Assembly: GCF_032716425.1 (NCBI RefSeq)
Contig: NZ_CP090420.1
Span: 248,001-312,000 of the forward strand
Direction of reading: 5' to 3'
Length of the DNA: 64,000 bases
Source of the DNA: Pseudoalteromonas sp. N1230-9
Lineage (GTDB): Bacteria; Pseudomonadota; Gammaproteobacteria; Enterobacterales; Alteromonadaceae
Shown here: piece by piece, positions 38,149-45,185 of the stretch
How the letters are laid out: each line of letters begins with the position of its first letter
How positions within the stretch are numbered: the first letter of the stretch is position 1
Made by a program: the position numbers and the translations under genes
Notes under the pieces: generated by a model
The model's database searches: none
Told to the model about the DNA's origin: nothing
What the model saw: the letters and a program-made list of their open reading frames with translations, nothing else

Positions 38149-38221
38149 TAAGAAAAACCTATGTATTAGCCATATTAAAAGCAGATTGTAACAAATTAAT
38201 CTTGGCTCTGGCGCAGTTGCG

Positions 38222-38610
38222 GTGGATATTTTTATAACTAGCAAAAGGTTAGTATGTTCGATACAAACATTTGATGATTACATAAAGTACTCAAGCTTGA
38301 TTAAGACCTTTGTTAATAGTCATGTTCAAAACTTGCTGAATGCTGGGGTTAACGTCGTTATGGATTTTCCAGCTAATACCGTAAAGCAAAGAGCTTGGTT
38401 TATATCACTGTGTTGTGAAATAAACAGTGAACATGAATTTTAGTATTTAGATTTAACCGATGAGCAATGTTTATCTCATCTCGCTAAACGTCGGATTGAA
38501 CAACCAGAAAGAGCTATGTTTGACACAAAAGCTGTATATCATCAAGTAACCCAGTATTTTGAAGCACCAATGGCTAGTGAAAACCTTCGTTTGATACGTG
38601 TAAGAAAAGT
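38222..38610 (+). pseudogene. Broken AAA/P-loop ATPase fragment
   Basis: The segment before 38441 (MDIFITSKRLVCSIQTFDDY...) and the segment after the in-frame TAG at 38441 (YLDLTDEQCLSHLAKRRIEQ...) read as one protein of the AAA_33-type kinase-like ATPases found in integron cassettes. The TAG is a premature stop and the P-loop N-terminus is absent, so it is a fragment. The natural end near RLIRVRK is obscured because the frame runs on into the attC-like repeat. Confidence 0.65.
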
Positions 38611-38611
38611 T

Positions 38612-38706
38612 CGCATAACAAGCTGCTTAAAGCAGAACCATAACGCATGGCATCTTACTAAATTAGCTTTAGTGTTTACGTCGCAATTGTTTAGGTCGGA
38701 GCAAAC
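38612..38706 (+). repeat. attC-like repeat A
   Basis: About 95 bases that recall, from memory, the Vibrio cholerae repeat (VCR): left part TAACAAGCTGCTTAAAGCAG, then AACGCATGGC, then TTTAGTGTTTACG and TTTAGGTCGG. It shares GGCATCTT, AGTGTTTAC and TTAGGTC with repeat B, the latter two at the same 20-base spacing. Looks like a degenerate cassette recombination site. No folding was computed. Confidence 0.5.
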
Positions 38707-38889
38707 CTTACCTATTACCTAACACAGCGTTACTACACTCCTGTTTTGGCATTAACATGAATAACTCACTGAATTTGTTTATGTCACAGGCAGCGATAAG
38801 CAAATTGCTTGCGCTAGTATAATTAAGCTCAATAGGATATTCTCATCGGCAATTTTTATTAAGATGTATTTTATTATAAAAGGATTTTT

Positions 38890-39495
38890 ATGTTTGAGAG
38901 CATCTCTGCGCTATCTGGCTTACTGGCTACGATTTGGATTTCTGTCGGTGTTTTCGTAACGGCTAAGTTTTACCCGAATTACGATCATAAAAACCAATTT
39001 TGCAGTGAATTAGGCGCTGCGGGTAGCCCCACTGAAAAGTTATCACCTATTATCAATAATTATCCACTCGGTTTTATATTTTGCTTATTTGGTTGGCATT
39101 TAACACAGCTTAATAATGCGAACATTGCTCTTGTCGTTACAGGTATTCTTATAATGCTCCATGGAATAGGAACATGGGTTGCGGGTTACTTTCCAATGGA
39201 TAAAGACCCTTATACCCAGTCACCAACGTTGAGCTGTAAAATACACTCATGGGCGGGTGTTATGATGCTTTTATCTCTTTTAATTGCCCCTGTAATAGTC
39301 GCATTAAGCCCTGCCTCTACTTATATTCCTTTTGAGTTTAGAGTGTTTTCAATTATTGTCGTTTTGTTAGCTATTTTTTATTTAGTAAAAATGGCTAAAG
39401 GTTTGAAAAATAGAAAATTAACTGGCTTTTATCAGCGTCTATCGTACTGGGTCAAGTTGATCTGGCTAAGTGTTCTATCTTTGTTATTAATATAA
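38890..39495 (+). CDS. DUF998 membrane protein
   Basis: 201 residues with six hydrophobic segments. The NQFCSELGAAGSPTEK, GIGTWVAGYFPMDKDP and KIHSWAG motifs are those of DUF998. A ATAAAAGGA box precedes the ATG. Function unknown. It sits as a stand-alone same-strand gene typical of a cassette between the broken ATPase and a 72-residue gene. Confidence 0.85.
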   Translation: MFESISALSGLLATIWISVGVFVTAKFYPNYDHKNQFCSELGAAGSPTEKLSPIINNYPLGFIFCLFGWHLTQLNNANIALVVTGILIMLHGIGTWVAGYFPMDKDPYTQSPTLSCKIHSWAGVMMLLSLLIAPVIVALSPASTYIPFEFRVFSIIVVLLAIFYLVKMAKGLKNRKLTGFYQRLSYWVKLIWLSVLSLLLI

Positions 39496-39562
39496 GGTTA
39501 GTTACATAGTTGAAGTCTGCTGATAGCACTAAAAATACAAACAATAGATTGACAGGAAATTT

Positions 39563-39781
39563 ATGAGAGAAGAATTGAGAGCCAAAATACTGGAAGTTTG
39601 CGATAAAAAAATGAAGAGCAAGGGAGAGAATGTTAGTCTGTCATTTTACGCCTTTTTTAAAAATAAAAATGATTGCCCTGAATTGCTAATGGAAGCGGCT
39701 ACATGGTGGATCCAAACTCATAAGTTAGATCACTTTGTTAAAGCAAAAACGATCAAAGAGATGGTAGAAAGTAATTTATAA
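39563..39781 (+). CDS. Conserved hypothetical small protein
   Basis: 72 residues, charged and helical, from an ATG with a GACAGGAAA box. No domain recognised. Small lone ORFs of this kind are common in integron cassettes. The stop (TTATAACAAGC) is followed by an attC-like beginning, but no full repeat is seen there. Confidence 0.6.
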   Translation: MREELRAKILEVCDKKMKSKGENVSLSFYAFFKNKNDCPELLMEAATWWIQTHKLDHFVKAKTIKEMVESNL

Positions 39782-39919
39782 CAAGCTCTCTTAGACGCCA
39801 CTAACATGTGTCTTGATATTCAACTGCACTTGGTTTAAGAATGAACGACAACCGGTATCAACTTTACAAGTATGCAGTCTTGGAATATTTTCTAAATTAC
39901 TACCACATTAAAGGTACAT

Positions 39920-40420
39920 ATGAAATTTGAAGTCCTCACTAAAAGTCATGTAAGTAAACTATTGGACTTTGAATTGAAAAATAGAGAATGGTTTGAAAGT
40001 TATATTTCGCCAAGGCCTAATGACTTTTACTCTCACAGCGGTGTTAATAAACATATTGATTCTCTACTTAATCAAATAAATTCAGGTAATGCCTTTTGCG
40101 GAGTTATACTTAAATATAATGTTATTGTCGCGAGAGCTAACTTAAAAAATATTTCAGACCAAAGTGCTTATGTCGGTTATCGTGTTGGCAAAGATTTTAC
40201 ATCTCAAGGTGTGGCAACTTACTGTTTAGAGCAATTAATTGATATTGGAAAAAGTAAGCTTAATTTAAAACAACTCAACGCCCAAGTGCTAAATAATAAT
40301 CCTACTTCAATGCACATATTGCACAAATTTGGTTTTGAAGCTGTTAGTACAACACCAAACTTTATAAAATTAAATAATAAACAATTAAGTTGCACTGAAC
40401 TCATCTTAAAATATGCATGA
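39920..40420 (+). CDS. GNAT acetyltransferase (RimJ/RimL type)
   Basis: 166 residues. YVGYRVGKDFTSQGVATYCLEQLIDIG is the acetyl-CoA motif of the RimJ/RimL branch, followed by NNPTSMHILHKFGFEA. Low GC. Substrate unknown; could be a protein N-terminus or a small molecule. A lone gene within the cassette-like stretch. Confidence 0.85.
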   Translation: MKFEVLTKSHVSKLLDFELKNREWFESYISPRPNDFYSHSGVNKHIDSLLNQINSGNAFCGVILKYNVIVARANLKNISDQSAYVGYRVGKDFTSQGVATYCLEQLIDIGKSKLNLKQLNAQVLNNNPTSMHILHKFGFEAVSTTPNFIKLNNKQLSCTELILKYA

Positions 40421-40453
40421 CTATGCAATCAAGAGCCCACACACATAGCTAAC

Positions 40454-40478
40454 GCTTGGTTCTTTAACTGAGCCAAGC
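40454..40478. repeat. Hairpin downstream of GNAT gene
   Basis: GCTTGGTTC / GAGCCAAGC arms of 9 bp (one G-T wobble) with a 7-base loop, 34 bases after the GNAT stop. No U-tract. It may be a terminator or the left half of a decayed attC site, since AACGCTTGG resembles the left box. Confidence 0.35.
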
Positions 40479-40629
40479 TTCGATAAAGAGCGAATCACAG
40501 AACTTTGTTTTTTGTTAACTTTATCAATTAATTACCTCGTAAAGTAAACATCCGTAAGTAGAAATGCGAGACGGTTTGAGGCAAAGAATTGAACTAATCG
40601 TTCAAATATTATTAAGGTTAAGGAGTAAC

Positions 40630-41067
40630 ATGGATATTTCACTGGAAGGAATAGGTAAATCGAATTACGAAGCTGTTTGTGATTTAGATGTAACCGATGA
40701 GCAAGAAGAGTATGTAGCTAGCAACATGTGGTCTCTTGTAGAAGCTCATTATAACTCAGGGTATATCTGCAAAGCGATTTGCCACAATGGTCAGCCAGTT
40801 GGTTTTTTTATGTGGGTTTTAGAGAACCCATCCAAAATTTCAATTTGGCGTTTTATGGTAGACCAACATCATCAGAAAAGGGGCATTGGAAGAAAAGCGT
40901 TAAAGATGGTTTTAAAAGAAATCACGACAGATTCGACAATCAAGGAAATCGAGATTTGCTACAATCCCAAAAACCCAGTGGCAAAAGACTTTTATTCTAG
41001 TTTTGGTTTTGAGGAGGTTGGCATGGACGAAGATGGTCAAGACATGCTCGCTCTTATTAAGCTATAA
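40630..41067 (+). CDS. GNAT acetyltransferase (polyamine-like)
   Basis: The ATG at 40630 has a clear AAGGAG box (145 residues); the ORF start at 40564 has none. The acetyl-CoA motif is RFMVDQHHQKRGIGRKALKMV, and NPVAKDFYSSFGFEEVG completes the fold. Resembles spermidine/spermine-type or PaiA-like acetyltransferases, but this is not decisive. Confidence 0.83.
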   Translation: MDISLEGIGKSNYEAVCDLDVTDEQEEYVASNMWSLVEAHYNSGYICKAICHNGQPVGFFMWVLENPSKISIWRFMVDQHHQKRGIGRKALKMVLKEITTDSTIKEIEICYNPKNPVAKDFYSSFGFEEVGMDEDGQDMLALIKL

Positions 41068-41177
41068 AAACCTAATAAAACGCTCCAACCACATTAGCTT
41101 TGGTGTTTAGGTGGTAGGCCGAAACGGCTATATTATGTTGCTCACCTTTAACGGGTAGTATTAAGATAGAGGTTAAA

Positions 41178-41654
41178 ATGTCTTCTGTACCAAGAAATAA
41201 GGTTGAATTGAAGTTAGCTATAGACTCAACATTTCCAAAATTAATGGCTGATTATCGCTCAATTCCACAAAGCAAAGCTCGTAAGCTTGGCATAGAGGGA
41301 AACGTCAAAGGTACAATCATTAGCGTTAGTGACACAGTGGCTTACCTGATTGGTTGGAGCAAGCTCGTTCTTAAATGGTACCACCTAAAATCTCAAAATC
41401 AGCATGTGGATTTCCCTGAAACCGGTTATAAATGGAATCAACTGGGGTTACTCGCCGAAAGTTTCTACGAAGAATATCGTGATTGGAAATACGATGTTCT
41501 TCTCATGGAGCTTGAGTCTACGGTGAACGAGATACTTTTACTTGTTTCAAGTTTAAGTGACCATGAGTTATATGGTGTCGCGTTGTATGAGCAATGGACT
41601 TTAGGGCGTATGGTCCAGTTGAATACGTTATCCCCTATGAAAAATACGTACTAA
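41178..41654 (+). CDS. ClbS/DfsB family protein, C-terminus short
   Basis: 158 residues. NKVELKLAIDSTFPKLMADY, SVSDTVAYLIGWSKLVLKWY, FPETGYKWNQLGLLAESFY and WTLGRMVQLNTLSPMKN match the ClbS/DfsB four-helix family. Known members normally continue as about 10-15 more residues after SPxKN; here a stop follows NTY, so the tail is missing or altered. ClbS opens the cyclopropane warhead of colibactin, protecting producers. Function here is unproven. Confidence 0.82.
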   Translation: MSSVPRNKVELKLAIDSTFPKLMADYRSIPQSKARKLGIEGNVKGTIISVSDTVAYLIGWSKLVLKWYHLKSQNQHVDFPETGYKWNQLGLLAESFYEEYRDWKYDVLLMELESTVNEILLLVSSLSDHELYGVALYEQWTLGRMVQLNTLSPMKNTY

Positions 41655-41684
41655 AGTTCGACGTTTCAATAGAGAGTATACATA

Positions 41685-41779
41685 TTAGGGCGTATCAAAG
41701 GGATTCTCAGTGCTTGGCATCTTCGATTAGTTTTAACGTTAGTGTTTACAGCACAGCAAGTTAGGTCAGGTGGTTGCGT
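41685..41779 (+). repeat. attC-like repeat B
   Basis: About 95 bases, 31 after the ClbS stop. TCAAAGGGATTCTCAGTGCT followed by TGGCATCTTC matches the left part of the VCR as I remember it, and AGTGTTTAC and GTTAGGTC match repeat A. GTTAGGT fits the attC right core GTTRRRY. Similarity to A over about 60 bases is clear by eye. Confidence 0.5.
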
Positions 41780-41903
41780 TGTTTGTACTTTTAATAGTTC
41801 ACAGATTATTTTTAACCCACTGAAATTTAATATAAATAATTTTTAAGTTTAATAAGCTAGCTTCTTCTGTTGTTTTTTCTCTGCGTCTCTAAGTGCCAAG
41901 GAA

Positions 41904-42122
41904 GTGACGGAATTTAAAATTCGAAATACGCATACTCTGCAAATAAAATCTCAAGAAACTGGACTGGATTATAAGTTATATATTCGCCTGCCAAACGATT
42001 ACTCAGAAAAACAAAAGCTACCTGCTGGTTTTATTAAACGCCATAGGTTATTCAGTTACGGTGGCAAGTGGTATGTACATTTTACTATAAACATCGTTAC
42101 GCTCGCGTTTTCCAACTGCTAA
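41904..42122 (+). pseudogene. Alpha/beta-hydrolase (esterase) fragment
   Basis: From GTG at 41904: IKSQETGLDYKLYIRLPNDYSEKQKLP is the beginning of an enterobactin-esterase-like / PHB-type hydrolase domain, but after residue 40 the sequence changes to unrelated residues and stops. It looks like a truncated remnant. No ribosome binding site of note. Confidence 0.55.
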
Positions 42123-42504
42123 AACGGTCACATGATTATATTGCCTTTAACTTCATAGGCGTGACGATAGCCAGACTGACTCAGCTTAATTTTATAAATA
42201 CAGATGCATATTTTTATAAATAGGAAAGTTTAGCTTTATATTTTATCAGTATAAGTTTAAAAATTTAAATTTATACCTAGAAAATTTTCTTAAAATTAAT
42301 GGAAGTGATCGGTTAATAGTATAAGTTTCTTATAGCTGCTAAACGATTTCTCACGAAATAATTATTTCTAAACCTTTCTTTATATCCAAATTAGCTTTTG
42401 TAACTTTTTGGTTTTATTTTGTTTTTTGCAAATGTAATTTAATGGGTTGTGAAAATAGTTAAATTAAGATGTTTTTTATGTTGACTTTATGCCCTTTCAA
42501 GGTA
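42123..42504. other. AT-rich gap before peptide operon
   Basis: About 380 bases, very rich in A and T, with no convincing gene. It probably contains the promoter of the peptide operon; I could not fix the -35 and -10 elements with confidence. Confidence 0.5.
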
Positions 42505-42541
42505 TTTTTAAAGTGTACCTTTTGTAGGTGCACTTTAAAAA
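42505..42541 (+). promoter_or_regulatory. 16-bp leader hairpin before peptide gene
   Basis: Arms TTTTTAAAGTGTACCT and AGGTGCACTTTAAAAA pair over 16 positions (one T-G wobble), with a TTTGT loop. It ends 12 bases before the GGAGGA box of the peptide gene. Without a U-tract on the plus strand it is more likely a 5' leader structure affecting mRNA stability or translation than a terminator. Confidence 0.6.
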
Positions 42542-42567
42542 TGTCAAATAAATTGGAGGATTTTATT

Positions 42568-42660
42568 ATGAATATAAATAAAGAAAAATTATTTCATCCG
42601 AAAGGTGTTTTATTTACTGCAGTAAAACTGTGGTCAAAAAATGAAGTTAAGAAGTCTTAA
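42568..42660 (+). CDS. 30-residue candidate RiPP precursor peptide
   Basis: A longer frame begins at 42469, but that region is a hairpin and the ATG at 42568 has an ideal GGAGGA box 7 bases upstream. The 30 residues start MNINKEKLFHPKGVLF and end TAVKLWSKNEVKKS. The peptide is basic (six to seven net lysines/arginines-type charges), has no cysteine, one tryptophan and a possible amphipathic part. It is followed by a hairpin and then the HExxH enzyme gene, so a precursor role fits. No leader/core boundary or homologue was recognised. Confidence 0.6.
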   Translation: MNINKEKLFHPKGVLFTAVKLWSKNEVKKS

Positions 42661-42672
42661 CTCTAATACTTC

Positions 42673-42701
42673 TCAAAGACAAAGCTTAGCTTTGTCTTTG
42701 A
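42673..42701 (+). terminator. Perfect 13-bp hairpin between peptide and enzyme genes
   Basis: TCAAAGACAAAGC / GCTTTGTCTTTGA with a TTA loop and a short T-rich tail. It starts 12 bases after the peptide stop. It may act as a partial terminator or 3' stabiliser that raises peptide mRNA over the downstream genes, a common device in peptide operons. Confidence 0.65.
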
Positions 42702-42738
42702 TTTCTTGTATTTCATATATTGAAAGGTTTAAATTCCA

Positions 42739-43677
42739 ATGGAAACACTCGAAAAATTACTGGAAAAAAAGAAATATTTTGATGAAAGAGTAACTGCCTC
42801 TATCTTATATTTGAGTGAGGCATTGAAAGTTGAAATTCATAATACTTCAGAGCTTTCTCCTAGTTGGATGACTTATGGCTACTACTTTTCGTGTTTGAAG
42901 AAAATTGAGGAAAATGATTTAGTGGTTGCTAAATCCTTCCTACAAAAAGCTATAGATAGTTATCATTATAAGTTATCAGAAATAAAGGTAACTTTTGCGG
43001 ATAAAATGTTTATGAAAAGCGAAGAGCATGCATTGATTCGTTCCATATATGATAGACCTGATAACAATGAAGCAGCTTATTTATTTGGTGCTTTTTCAAA
43101 TGATTTAGAGCAGGAAAAGAAAAAAATATATAAAGCACTTTCAACCATTGAAACTCACTTGCCAGAATATTATCAACAATTAGTTAACTTTATTCCTAAT
43201 TTGCTAATTACTGGTCCTACGGACACGCGGTTTATTACTTCTGCTTCAACAGTTAAGTTATTCGGATGTGTGATTATTGGATCATACGGAACTAGTTCTA
43301 TATGCACATATCTTGAAGATTTGATTCATGAGTTGGCGCATCATAGATTATTCTTAGAGCAAGCACATGATGAATTAATAAAAAACTCACCTAATGAAAA
43401 ATATCCAGCTCCATTCCGCTCTGACTTGCGACCTATGGCGGGGCTATTTCATGCTCACTATGTGTTGGGGAATATTTTTAAAACATTTCATACTTTATCG
43501 TGTTTGGAAGAATGGAAAAAAAACGCAGAATTTCAAGAGATGTTATCAAGTGCAAAGAGGCGTTTCTATCATGGCAAAGAAATAATCGATCAGCATGGTC
43601 AATTTACTGAACGAGGTTTAAATATATACCAAACCATAAATAAAGAAGTTGATTTGATAGTCGTTTCTGCGACATAG
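42739..43677 (+). CDS. HExxH-type putative 2-oxoglutarate-dependent peptide beta-hydroxylase
   Basis: 312 residues. The metal motif is H197-E-L-A-H201 in LEDLIHELAHHRLFLEQ. Further on lies the family signature FRSDLRPMAGLFHAHYVLGN (residues 226-245), which supplies the probable third ligand H238. This combination (HExxH plus R-x-D-x-R-P-x-x-G-L-x-H) is that of the HEXXH-motif peptide-modification family, now annotated as aKG-HExxH-type peptide beta-hydroxylases. Low GC, and the MFS gene follows after 25 bases. The reaction on the upstream peptide is inference. Confidence 0.85.
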   Translation: METLEKLLEKKKYFDERVTASILYLSEALKVEIHNTSELSPSWMTYGYYFSCLKKIEENDLVVAKSFLQKAIDSYHYKLSEIKVTFADKMFMKSEEHALIRSIYDRPDNNEAAYLFGAFSNDLEQEKKKIYKALSTIETHLPEYYQQLVNFIPNLLITGPTDTRFITSASTVKLFGCVIIGSYGTSSICTYLEDLIHELAHHRLFLEQAHDELIKNSPNEKYPAPFRSDLRPMAGLFHAHYVLGNIFKTFHTLSCLEEWKKNAEFQEMLSSAKRRFYHGKEIIDQHGQFTERGLNIYQTINKEVDLIVVSAT

Positions 43678-43702
43678 CGTTTGATTTATTAGGCCTTAAT
43701 TT

Positions 43703-44929
43703 ATGAGCAGTTGTAAGAAAAATCAAAATATGCCATTGCTAATGATGGCTTATTTTATCTCGTCTGCTGGAAATTGGATTTTCAAATTTGCCACCCCCTT
43801 ATATATATTTACTGCAACAAGCTCCGCACAGCTAATGGCTTTGGCGTATGCAGCGCAATTTTTACCTGTCGTTCTCTTTTCGTTGTTTGTTGGCTACGTA
43901 TCCGAGCGCTTCGATAATAAAAAACTGTTGCTGCTTATGGATTTTATAGGATTTGTATTGTGCTTAGCTTTATTTAGTCTGTGGCATGATGAAATGCCTA
44001 GTGAGCTATATATATTATATTCATTTTTAATTGCATCTATAACAACTTCTTATCATAGCTTTTTTCATGGTGCTATCCCAAGAGCTTTCACATCAAAACA
44101 AATCCATTCTGTGTCAGGTGGGATCGCTTTTATAGATTCATTCTTTCCCATTCTGGGGCCTATGCTGGGAGCTGTTGTGGCTTCTGTTATAAGCTATAAA
44201 TCTGCTTTGCTTCTTACTGGTTTTGGCTTTTTAGTTTCTTGGTTTATAACTTTATTTATTGTATTTCATGATCGTGAGCTAGAGAAAACTGGCAGCCTTT
44301 ATAAAACTATTAAAAACGGATTCAAAATAATAATTGAATCAAGATTTCTCTCTTTTGCTATTCTACGGTTTTTTATGGCTGGTATTGGTTTGAATTGTTT
44401 TGTTTCTTTATTTATGTTTTTACTTAAAACAGAATATTTTCTTTCAGATGTAGATGTCGGTATTGTTTATGCCATTTCTTTTATTGGGTTATTAGTCGGT
44501 AAACGAATTACGTCTTTTATTTATAATTATAGGTTTGATATAGAATTACTATTAACGTGCACAGGCTTGGTAACTGCATTATGCATATATTTGTTATCTA
44601 TTAGGATAGGTTTTGTAGCAGTGGTTGTTGCATGGAGTGTCATAACAATGATGAGTACAATCAATCTTATTATTTTATATACAGAAAGACAGAAAGAAGT
44701 TGATAAGTCTAATATTACTAATGTTGTCTCTATTTCAACAATGCTAATTTTATTGTCATTTCCCATAGGCTCTTTTAGTGCAAGTGAGCTAATAGAATTC
44801 TTGAACGTATTTGATGTTATTAATATCTCTGCTTTATATTTACTTATTTTAAGTGGTATTTTTCTTTTGAGCTGGTGTTACAGTTGGGTAAAGCGACTCT
44901 CTAGGCAAGATACTAGTGAAGAAAGCTAG
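43703..44929 (+). CDS. MFS transporter, candidate peptide exporter
   Basis: 408 residues with about twelve membrane helices; the N-terminus (MMAYFISSAGNWIFKFATPLY) and the FVGYVSERFDNKKLLLLMD loop are typical of the MFS_3/EntS-like branch. It is 25 bases downstream of the HExxH enzyme and shares its AT-rich composition. Export of the mature peptide or of a related compound is inferred from context. No separate protease gene is seen. Confidence 0.88.
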   Translation: MSSCKKNQNMPLLMMAYFISSAGNWIFKFATPLYIFTATSSAQLMALAYAAQFLPVVLFSLFVGYVSERFDNKKLLLLMDFIGFVLCLALFSLWHDEMPSELYILYSFLIASITTSYHSFFHGAIPRAFTSKQIHSVSGGIAFIDSFFPILGPMLGAVVASVISYKSALLLTGFGFLVSWFITLFIVFHDRELEKTGSLYKTIKNGFKIIIESRFLSFAILRFFMAGIGLNCFVSLFMFLLKTEYFLSDVDVGIVYAISFIGLLVGKRITSFIYNYRFDIELLLTCTGLVTALCIYLLSIRIGFVAVVVAWSVITMMSTINLIILYTERQKEVDKSNITNVVSISTMLILLSFPIGSFSASELIEFLNVFDVINISALYLLILSGIFLLSWCYSWVKRLSRQDTSEES

Positions 44930-45185
44930 GTTTATTCTTTACAAGGTAATTGTGACTTTAGAGGTTTATTTTTGCAAATTGTGAGAATTGTTTCATTAAA
45001 TGGTAAGGCTCAATAAAGGAGGCAGCTTTAAAAGCAAAATTTCTAGGGTTTAACTTTTTAAACATTTGATACATATTTGGCTTTAAAAATACAATTAGAG
45101 TTCATCGCATCATGCTTGCTTTGCTTAATAGACTGGCGTAACTTAATACTGGTACGATGAGTCTATAAGAATAAAAAGGTCAAAC

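Follow-up and report, generated by a model that had tools for sequence, protein, structure and literature searches.

The aKG-HExxH enzyme family, the logic of ribosomally synthesized and post-translationally modified peptides (RiPPs) and export by transporters of the major facilitator superfamily (MFS) are already known. The aKG-HExxH domain of ChlB/ChlH (PDB 8s5f) was reportedly described by Morishita et al. in Nat Chem in 2024. The subject of the present analysis is a 64,000-nucleotide stretch of Pseudoalteromonas sp. N1230-9 (contig NZ_CP090420.1, positions 248,001 to 312,000), hereafter the window, in which a 30-codon open reading frame (ORF) is followed by genes for an aKG-HExxH-type peptide oxygenase and a putative MFS exporter. 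In all probability this locus is a minimal RiPP cassette, in which a tiny precursor is oxidized by the HExxH iron enzyme and exported by the MFS protein. The computed basis consists of which genes are present and in what order, the recurrence of this arrangement in distant bacteria, the family and fold of the enzyme, a shared motif, and purifying selection on the peptide of one sub-family.

The window enzyme has the fold and the metal/2-oxoglutarate motif of ChlB/ChlH, but it is a stand-alone protein and the only modifying enzyme that its cassette encodes. PflC and PosC of Pseudomonas are likewise stand-alone aKG-HExxH enzymes acting on a leader-bearing precursor, and the available part of the report on them (PMC12636437) describes Gln beta-hydroxylation together with an oxidative backbone cleavage that depends on the N-terminal part of the substrate. 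That part of the report also gives the Pfl/Pos systems a nitrile-hydratase-type leader, an MNIO-nitroreductase, a GNAT protein and two transporters, whereas the window has a 30-residue precursor, one enzyme and one MFS protein. A scan of the genes from 39.5 to 46.1 kb, the only part of the genome searched for one, gave DUF6500, two GNAT, DUF1706, HExxH, MFS and alpha/beta hydrolase, and no MNIO-nitroreductase. The biphenomycin cluster bip, in the portion of its description available (PMC12707348), shares with the window an MFS transporter, an aKG-HExxH hydroxylase and a small product, but additionally contains a radical-SAM (rSAM) enzyme, an MNIO, a JmjC oxygenase and a TldD-type protease. In the nitrilobacillin cluster pes, the aKG-HExxH enzyme PesO hydroxylates a core Pro, and the accessible part of that source (PMC13060819) adds an MNIO, an AS-like nitrile synthetase and M16 peptidases; it lists His, Asp, Phe, Gln and Pro as residues hydroxylated by known members.

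Among the loci compared here, those with long LDxxKLLG precursors (L023-L027 and L045-L048) share the enzyme family and the leader motif, but differ in having precursors of 33-79 residues and, in several cases, a neighbouring protein of about 320 residues; no MFS gene was noticed, most neighbours being unscanned. Minimal cassettes made of a tiny precursor and few genes also produce pantocin A and microcin C. These rely on a ThiF-like enzyme, and no such enzyme is found among the three cassette genes of the window. For the precursor family and the one-enzyme arrangement, no publication was found among the matches listed, a coverage that leaves out most subscription journals.

The window cassette

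The elements of the cassette are as follows.

42555..42560, + strand: ribosome-binding site GGAGGA, 7 nt before the ATG (GAAGGA in strain CO133X)
42568..42660, + strand: putative RiPP precursor of 30 aa, a 30-codon ATG ORF, MNINKEKLFHPKGVLFTAVKLWSKNEVKKS, with the leader-like motif INKEKLF at residues 3-9
42673..42701, + strand: 13-bp stem-loop resembling a terminator, in the gap that separates the precursor and enzyme genes (z -4.9, a stability reached by 1 of 200 shuffles)
42739..43677, + strand: aKG-HExxH-type peptide oxygenase of 312 aa, with HELAH and FRSDLRPMAGLFHAH, above the TIGR04267 cut-off
43703..44929, + strand: putative MFS exporter of 408 aa (MFS_1, 70 bits)

A preliminary description made from the letters alone had named a 30-residue ORF with a strong GGAGGA box, a HExxH protein with its signature and an MFS transporter, all on one strand, and each of these was recovered. 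Its statement that the precursor has no recognised family also holds, as the 30-mer matched no family in NCBIfam or Pfam. It had further placed the HExxH protein in a family of peptide hydroxylases, and the TIGR04267 score and the aKG-HExxH fold agree with this, although published members also cleave the backbone oxidatively, according to the available part of PMC12636437. The RiPP operon proposed there is thus supported; hydroxylation, with its +16 Da shift, and export are what we infer. The stem-loop at 42673-42701, the hairpin 5' of the ribosome-binding site and the failure of this stretch to align with the nearest congener are additions to that description. A 63-aa reading from position 42469 was set aside: the other peptides carry the motif close to their N-terminus, and here only the ATG at 42568, which is preceded by a Shine-Dalgarno (SD) sequence, gives that placement.

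Related cassettes and their precursor peptides

Gene context was read in nine loci: the window, Pseudoalteromonas sp. CO133X (L002), a Pantoea agglomerans plasmid (L009), two Xenorhabdus plasmids (L010 and L011), Photobacterium (L012), and L043, L060 and L061. Weak or partial matches (L004-L006, L020, L021, L030) were left out, as were L044, L051-L053, L062 and L063, which were viewed by ORF lists alone. The check proposed at the outset, a search for small conserved ORFs in related loci, gave SD-preceded ORFs with a common N-terminal motif at the head of cassettes in Pantoea, Xenorhabdus, Photobacterium and two other gammaproteobacterial genomes, and so did not refute the proposal. The small ORF is present in 7 of the 9 loci, the exceptions being L011, where the same ORF has ATA in place of its start codon, and L060. 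CO133X belongs to the same species and encodes an identical peptide within a 5.5-kb region of 99.3% identity; the remaining peptides are MKKVESSKLLKIKSPLSGWSFSK (L009), MLKKFDTQKIIGLKNQSTCLTIMTIGTK (L010), MKKLDEKKVFSLRKKSTPCLKNVSN (L012), MKLDMSKLIVSQSALSLTAMVALSSVNKSIGE (L043) and MLKKLDPSKVVGLKNQSNCKTIMTIGV (L061). Those of L009, L010 and L011 are absent from the gene tables of their records.

The pattern M-x(1-4)-[ILVF][DNE]xxK[ILVM][ILVF] fits all 5 of the distinct short peptides, but was chosen post hoc and is weak for the window taken alone. Similar LDxxKLLG-like starts recur next to HExxH enzymes that are more distantly related: of 13 loci whose upstream region was read, 9 (L023-L027, L045-L048) have such an ORF, 33-79 codons long and with an SD sequence before it. 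Of the other four, L028 is truncated where its contig ends, L029 and L050 carry different ORFs, and L049 carries none. With a profile built from these nine long-precursor leaders alone, the score of each short peptide was compared with those of 5000 composition-preserving shuffles, which gave p values of 0.013 (window), 0.010 (L009), 0.043 (L010), 0.003 (L012) and 0.004 (L043), with a Fisher combination of 1e-6, or 7e-6 when the window is omitted; L061 was found later and lies outside the test. As controls, 270 other ORFs of 200 codons or more were picked mechanically from the fetched loci, spurious ones included; a motif ORF lies upstream of two, the L010 enzyme, which had slipped past the exclusion rule, and the L012 pump. 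Because both are cassette genes, the count among the remaining controls is 0 of 268.

A stem-loop lies 3' of the small ORF in all six loci folded, with z values of -4.9 (window), -4.85 (L009), -7.9 (L010), -2.2 (L012), -4.9 (L043) and -2.9 (L061), and in the two long-precursor loci folded (-2.8 in L026 and -2.6 in L024). Terminator-like sites number 4 in the region against 1.2 expected. The peptides of L010 and L061 agree at 19 of 26 residues, with a proportion of synonymous differences (pS) of 0.74, a dS of about 3.2 and a dN of 0.185, the synonymous sites being near saturation. The peptide of this Xenorhabdus type is thus under purifying selection, a result that does not extend to the window's type.

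Some loci carry further genes or are damaged. A carboxymuconolactone-decarboxylase-like gene is added in L010, L011 and L061 (judged in L010 by a same-size neighbour) and an EamA transporter in L043, while the HExxH gene is broken in L061 and annotated short in L011. In L060 (661-11274) the HExxH gene scores 232.9 bits to profile A4, a large multi-span protein lies on the other strand, and no precursor or MFS gene was noticed near the HExxH gene; by eye, a transposase-like ORF pair directly precedes this gene, with a second copy 3' of it.

Several long precursors have Gly/Lys-rich cores, such as that of L024 (79 aa) with GAKIGKAP-type repeats. The protein of about 320 residues adjoins L023 (5879-6850), L025 (3266-4225), L026 (5781-6743) and L045 (4242-5219); none of the four has a Pfam match, and those of L023, L025 and L026 have no NCBIfam match. 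L024 and L027 have neighbours of ATP-grasp type that resemble cyanophycin synthetase, with scores below cut-off. An 86-codon ORF of L062 (6547-6807) with a double-glycine-like stretch, KINKEEIQKVSGG, recognised by eye, adjoins a HExxH gene and is a candidate for another kind of HExxH-linked precursor. Radical-SAM-like, HExxH and peptidase-type ABC-transporter-like proteins stand side by side in L051 and L063 (by eye), an arrangement resembling rSAM/HExxH RiPP clusters. Assignment to a described precursor family was rejected, given the lack of a NCBIfam or Pfam match for the window's 30-mer; the weak match of the Pantoea peptide to the TQQ RaS-RiPP leader (17.1 bits) is below the cut-off of 50.

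The HExxH enzyme and the MFS protein

The window enzyme scores 71.5 bits to TIGR04267, for which the curated NCBIfam cut-off is 40; the corresponding values are 91.9 for L009, 69.4 for L010 and 50.3 for L012. A tree of 24 enzymes contains a branch (support 94/85) separating the five grouped short-precursor enzymes from nine long-precursor ones, ten rows that belong to no group being left out of this split; long branches make the deeper order unsure. Relatives are rare. Any match was found in 5 of 395 sampled genomes of the family, own genome included, and within a genus sample of 108 only in the window genome and the same-species one. Wider sampling yielded matches in 9 of 369 genomes of the class and, at a completeness of 90 or more, in 12 of 397 of the phylum and 7 of 295 of the order; most of these are distant enzymes. 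A pattern scan over contigs of 84,980 species returned CO133X alone, and four plasmid records hold a relative. A phage or viral origin was rejected, with no relative of the enzyme in phage records or viral contigs, and so was an anti-phage defence system, with no PADLOC family for the three proteins (E up to 0.01).

An adjacent MFS gene occurs in 8 of the 9 loci (window, L002, L009, L010, L011, L012, L043 and L061). The call rests on a 99.3% DNA match in L002 and on tblastn over all 409 residues in L010; that of L043, at 28.0 bits, is below the Pfam threshold of 33.4. The window protein matches the TIGR00900 H+ antiporter family with 129.5 bits, below its cut-off of 319.6, and its weaker matches include macrolide efflux pumps. 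Orthology of the MFS proteins between cassettes was considered and is unsupported by BLASTP.

Evidence against the cassette reading and alternative explanations

Several results weigh against the minimal RiPP cassette. The window's peptide type is seen within its own species alone, in a set of loci that excludes the closest enzymes (P0002-P0006, 53-65% identity), and beyond the motif the short peptides show no obvious alignment, except L010 with L061, and no obvious common target residue. The window's version of the motif departs most from the canonical form (N in place of D, F in place of L, and G missing), and the pattern was written, and the ORFs chosen, only once the peptides had been inspected. 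An earlier profile from five leaders was weaker, with p 0.098 for the window and a Fisher value of 0.009 over four peptides; it ranked the window peptide 17th among 247 scored ORFs (417 controls and nine precursors having been supplied). The Photobacterium enzyme joins the other four short-precursor enzymes weakly (77/78), and a second crystallised relative (22nu) has no histidine aligning to H238. The MFS proteins of L009 and L012 have no BLASTP similarity to that of the window, and that of L011 only 28 bits.

The small ORF might instead be a regulatory leader peptide, on which stalled ribosomes would keep the terminator from forming and so turn on expression of the transporter, in the manner of drug-inducible attenuation. 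The order of a short ORF, a terminator-like hairpin and then genes that include a pump with macrolide-efflux matches fits this, as does L012, where the pump precedes the enzyme and is the first gene after the hairpin. Attenuation is nevertheless improbable, as the first gene 3' of the hairpin encodes the modifying enzyme, and not the pump, in 5 of the 6 distinct loci with short precursors. The same motif also heads the ORFs of 33-79 residues beside HExxH enzymes with no MFS gene noticed adjacent (most neighbours being unscanned), some of which carry repeated core motifs; in L046 the gene for an RND-like pump is oriented divergently from the ORF. Moreover, it is the amino-acid sequence that is conserved between L010 and L061, along the length of the peptide.

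The window enzyme might also be a zinc protease that cuts the peptide, since HExxH is the signature of the zincins. According to the available part of PMC12636437, PflC hydrolyses a truncated peptide at the site that is otherwise cleaved oxidatively. We consider a protease highly improbable: the fold is that of the ChlB-HExxH domain (PDB 8s5f), H197, E198, H201, R227, R231 and H238 (window numbering) are invariant in 11 sequences, and the ChlH-like downstream region R..RP..G..H is present in the window enzyme (L010 has RT, not RP). That the small ORF arose by chance and the substrate is encoded elsewhere is scarcely credible, for although small ORFs are common (under a loose SD rule, an SD-preceded ORF of 20-40 codons lies upstream of 109 of 270 control ORFs), the motif, position and hairpin recur, and no motif ORF precedes the other long ORFs.

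Proposed mechanism

For the minimal RiPP cassette we infer a scheme in which the peptide would be the substrate, and which extends to chemistry, leader removal, export and biological role. The 30-codon ORF would be translated from its strong ribosome-binding site as the precursor, and residues 1 to 9-12 would form a leader of unusual brevity, with the motif hydrophobic-[DNE]-x-x-K-hydrophobic-hydrophobic as its recognition element. The enzyme would grip this N-terminal motif and oxidize the C-terminal half at one residue or several; Fe(II)/2-oxoglutarate-dependent beta-hydroxylation is the likeliest reaction, with oxidative backbone cleavage as a possibility. The stem-loop at 42673-42701 is probably a partial terminator at which most transcripts stop, so that enzyme and pump would be kept low and the substrate in excess over the enzyme. 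Because the cassette has no protease gene, the leader would be removed by a host protease encoded outside it, or trimmed by the HExxH enzyme itself. The MFS protein may export the product and give self-protection; by analogy with the biphenomycin cluster, MFS export suggests that this product is small.

Genomic setting

The downstream gene was found in 59 of 60 congener genomes searched, and six of these loci were fetched. By blastn (E 1e-8, matches of more than 80 bases) the flanks align in 6 of 6, with no match for the DNA between, so that the cassette lies in a variable stretch and looks acquired, as judged from sequence comparison. The surrounding features are:

41060..45101, strand not applicable: stretch to which none of the 6 fetched congener loci, all with aligning flanks, has matching DNA
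42505..42541, + strand: hairpin or inverted repeat just 5' of the ribosome-binding site (z -4.78; 0 of 200 shuffles as stable)

In the nearest congener (94-96% identity over most of the flank) the gap spans 41.06-45.10 kb, and in the remaining five loci its left edge is near 38.2 kb. Besides the cassette, the variable stretch of 38200-45100 holds two GNAT genes, DUF6500 and DUF1706; the GNAT gene at 40564-41067 was rejected as a cassette member because it is common to a congener without the cassette (L072). The cassette had been described as more AT-rich than its flanks. With a GC content of 0.25-0.37 over 42.0-45.2 kb this stands for the right side (0.39-0.45 over 45.25-50.2 kb), but not for the left flank at 38-42 kb, which is likewise low (0.33-0.41), so that the contrast is sharp on one side only. 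A 72-aa ORF at 41904-42122 resembles the first part of PF00756 esterases weakly and below threshold (E 0.14), and is possibly a gene remnant.

The strong inverted repeat at 42505-42541 has the arms AAAGTGTACC...GGTGCACTTT, and lies between the ribosome-binding site and a weak promoter-like site that precedes it (TTGACT-16-TATTTT, 42481-42508); it could be a 5' RNA stem, an mRNA stabiliser or an operator. Promoter-like sites in the region (17 observed, 14.4 expected) are not significant.

Significance

The similar cassettes found elsewhere point to ribosomal peptide products that form a small family not yet described. A broader, tentative reading, which we hold to be possible and not the likelier outcome, is an undescribed minimal RiPP class on plasmids and in variable chromosomal stretches of gammaproteobacteria, in which a stand-alone aKG-HExxH oxygenase is the sole modifying enzyme, the precursors have 23-32 residues with a leader of roughly 10, and a small oligopeptide is exported by the MFS protein. 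In such a class a single enzyme may perform both core oxidation and oxidative trimming, which, if so, would explain the lack of a protease. The window holds the smallest aKG-HExxH oxygenase arrangement met in this analysis, in a family whose earliest activity report found dates from 2024. As about 1.1 kb holds both the precursor gene and the enzyme gene, the action of such an enzyme on an unmodified short peptide, without other tailoring enzymes, is directly addressable. As these precursors are short enough to escape gene callers, further cassettes of the same kind are probably hidden in genomes.
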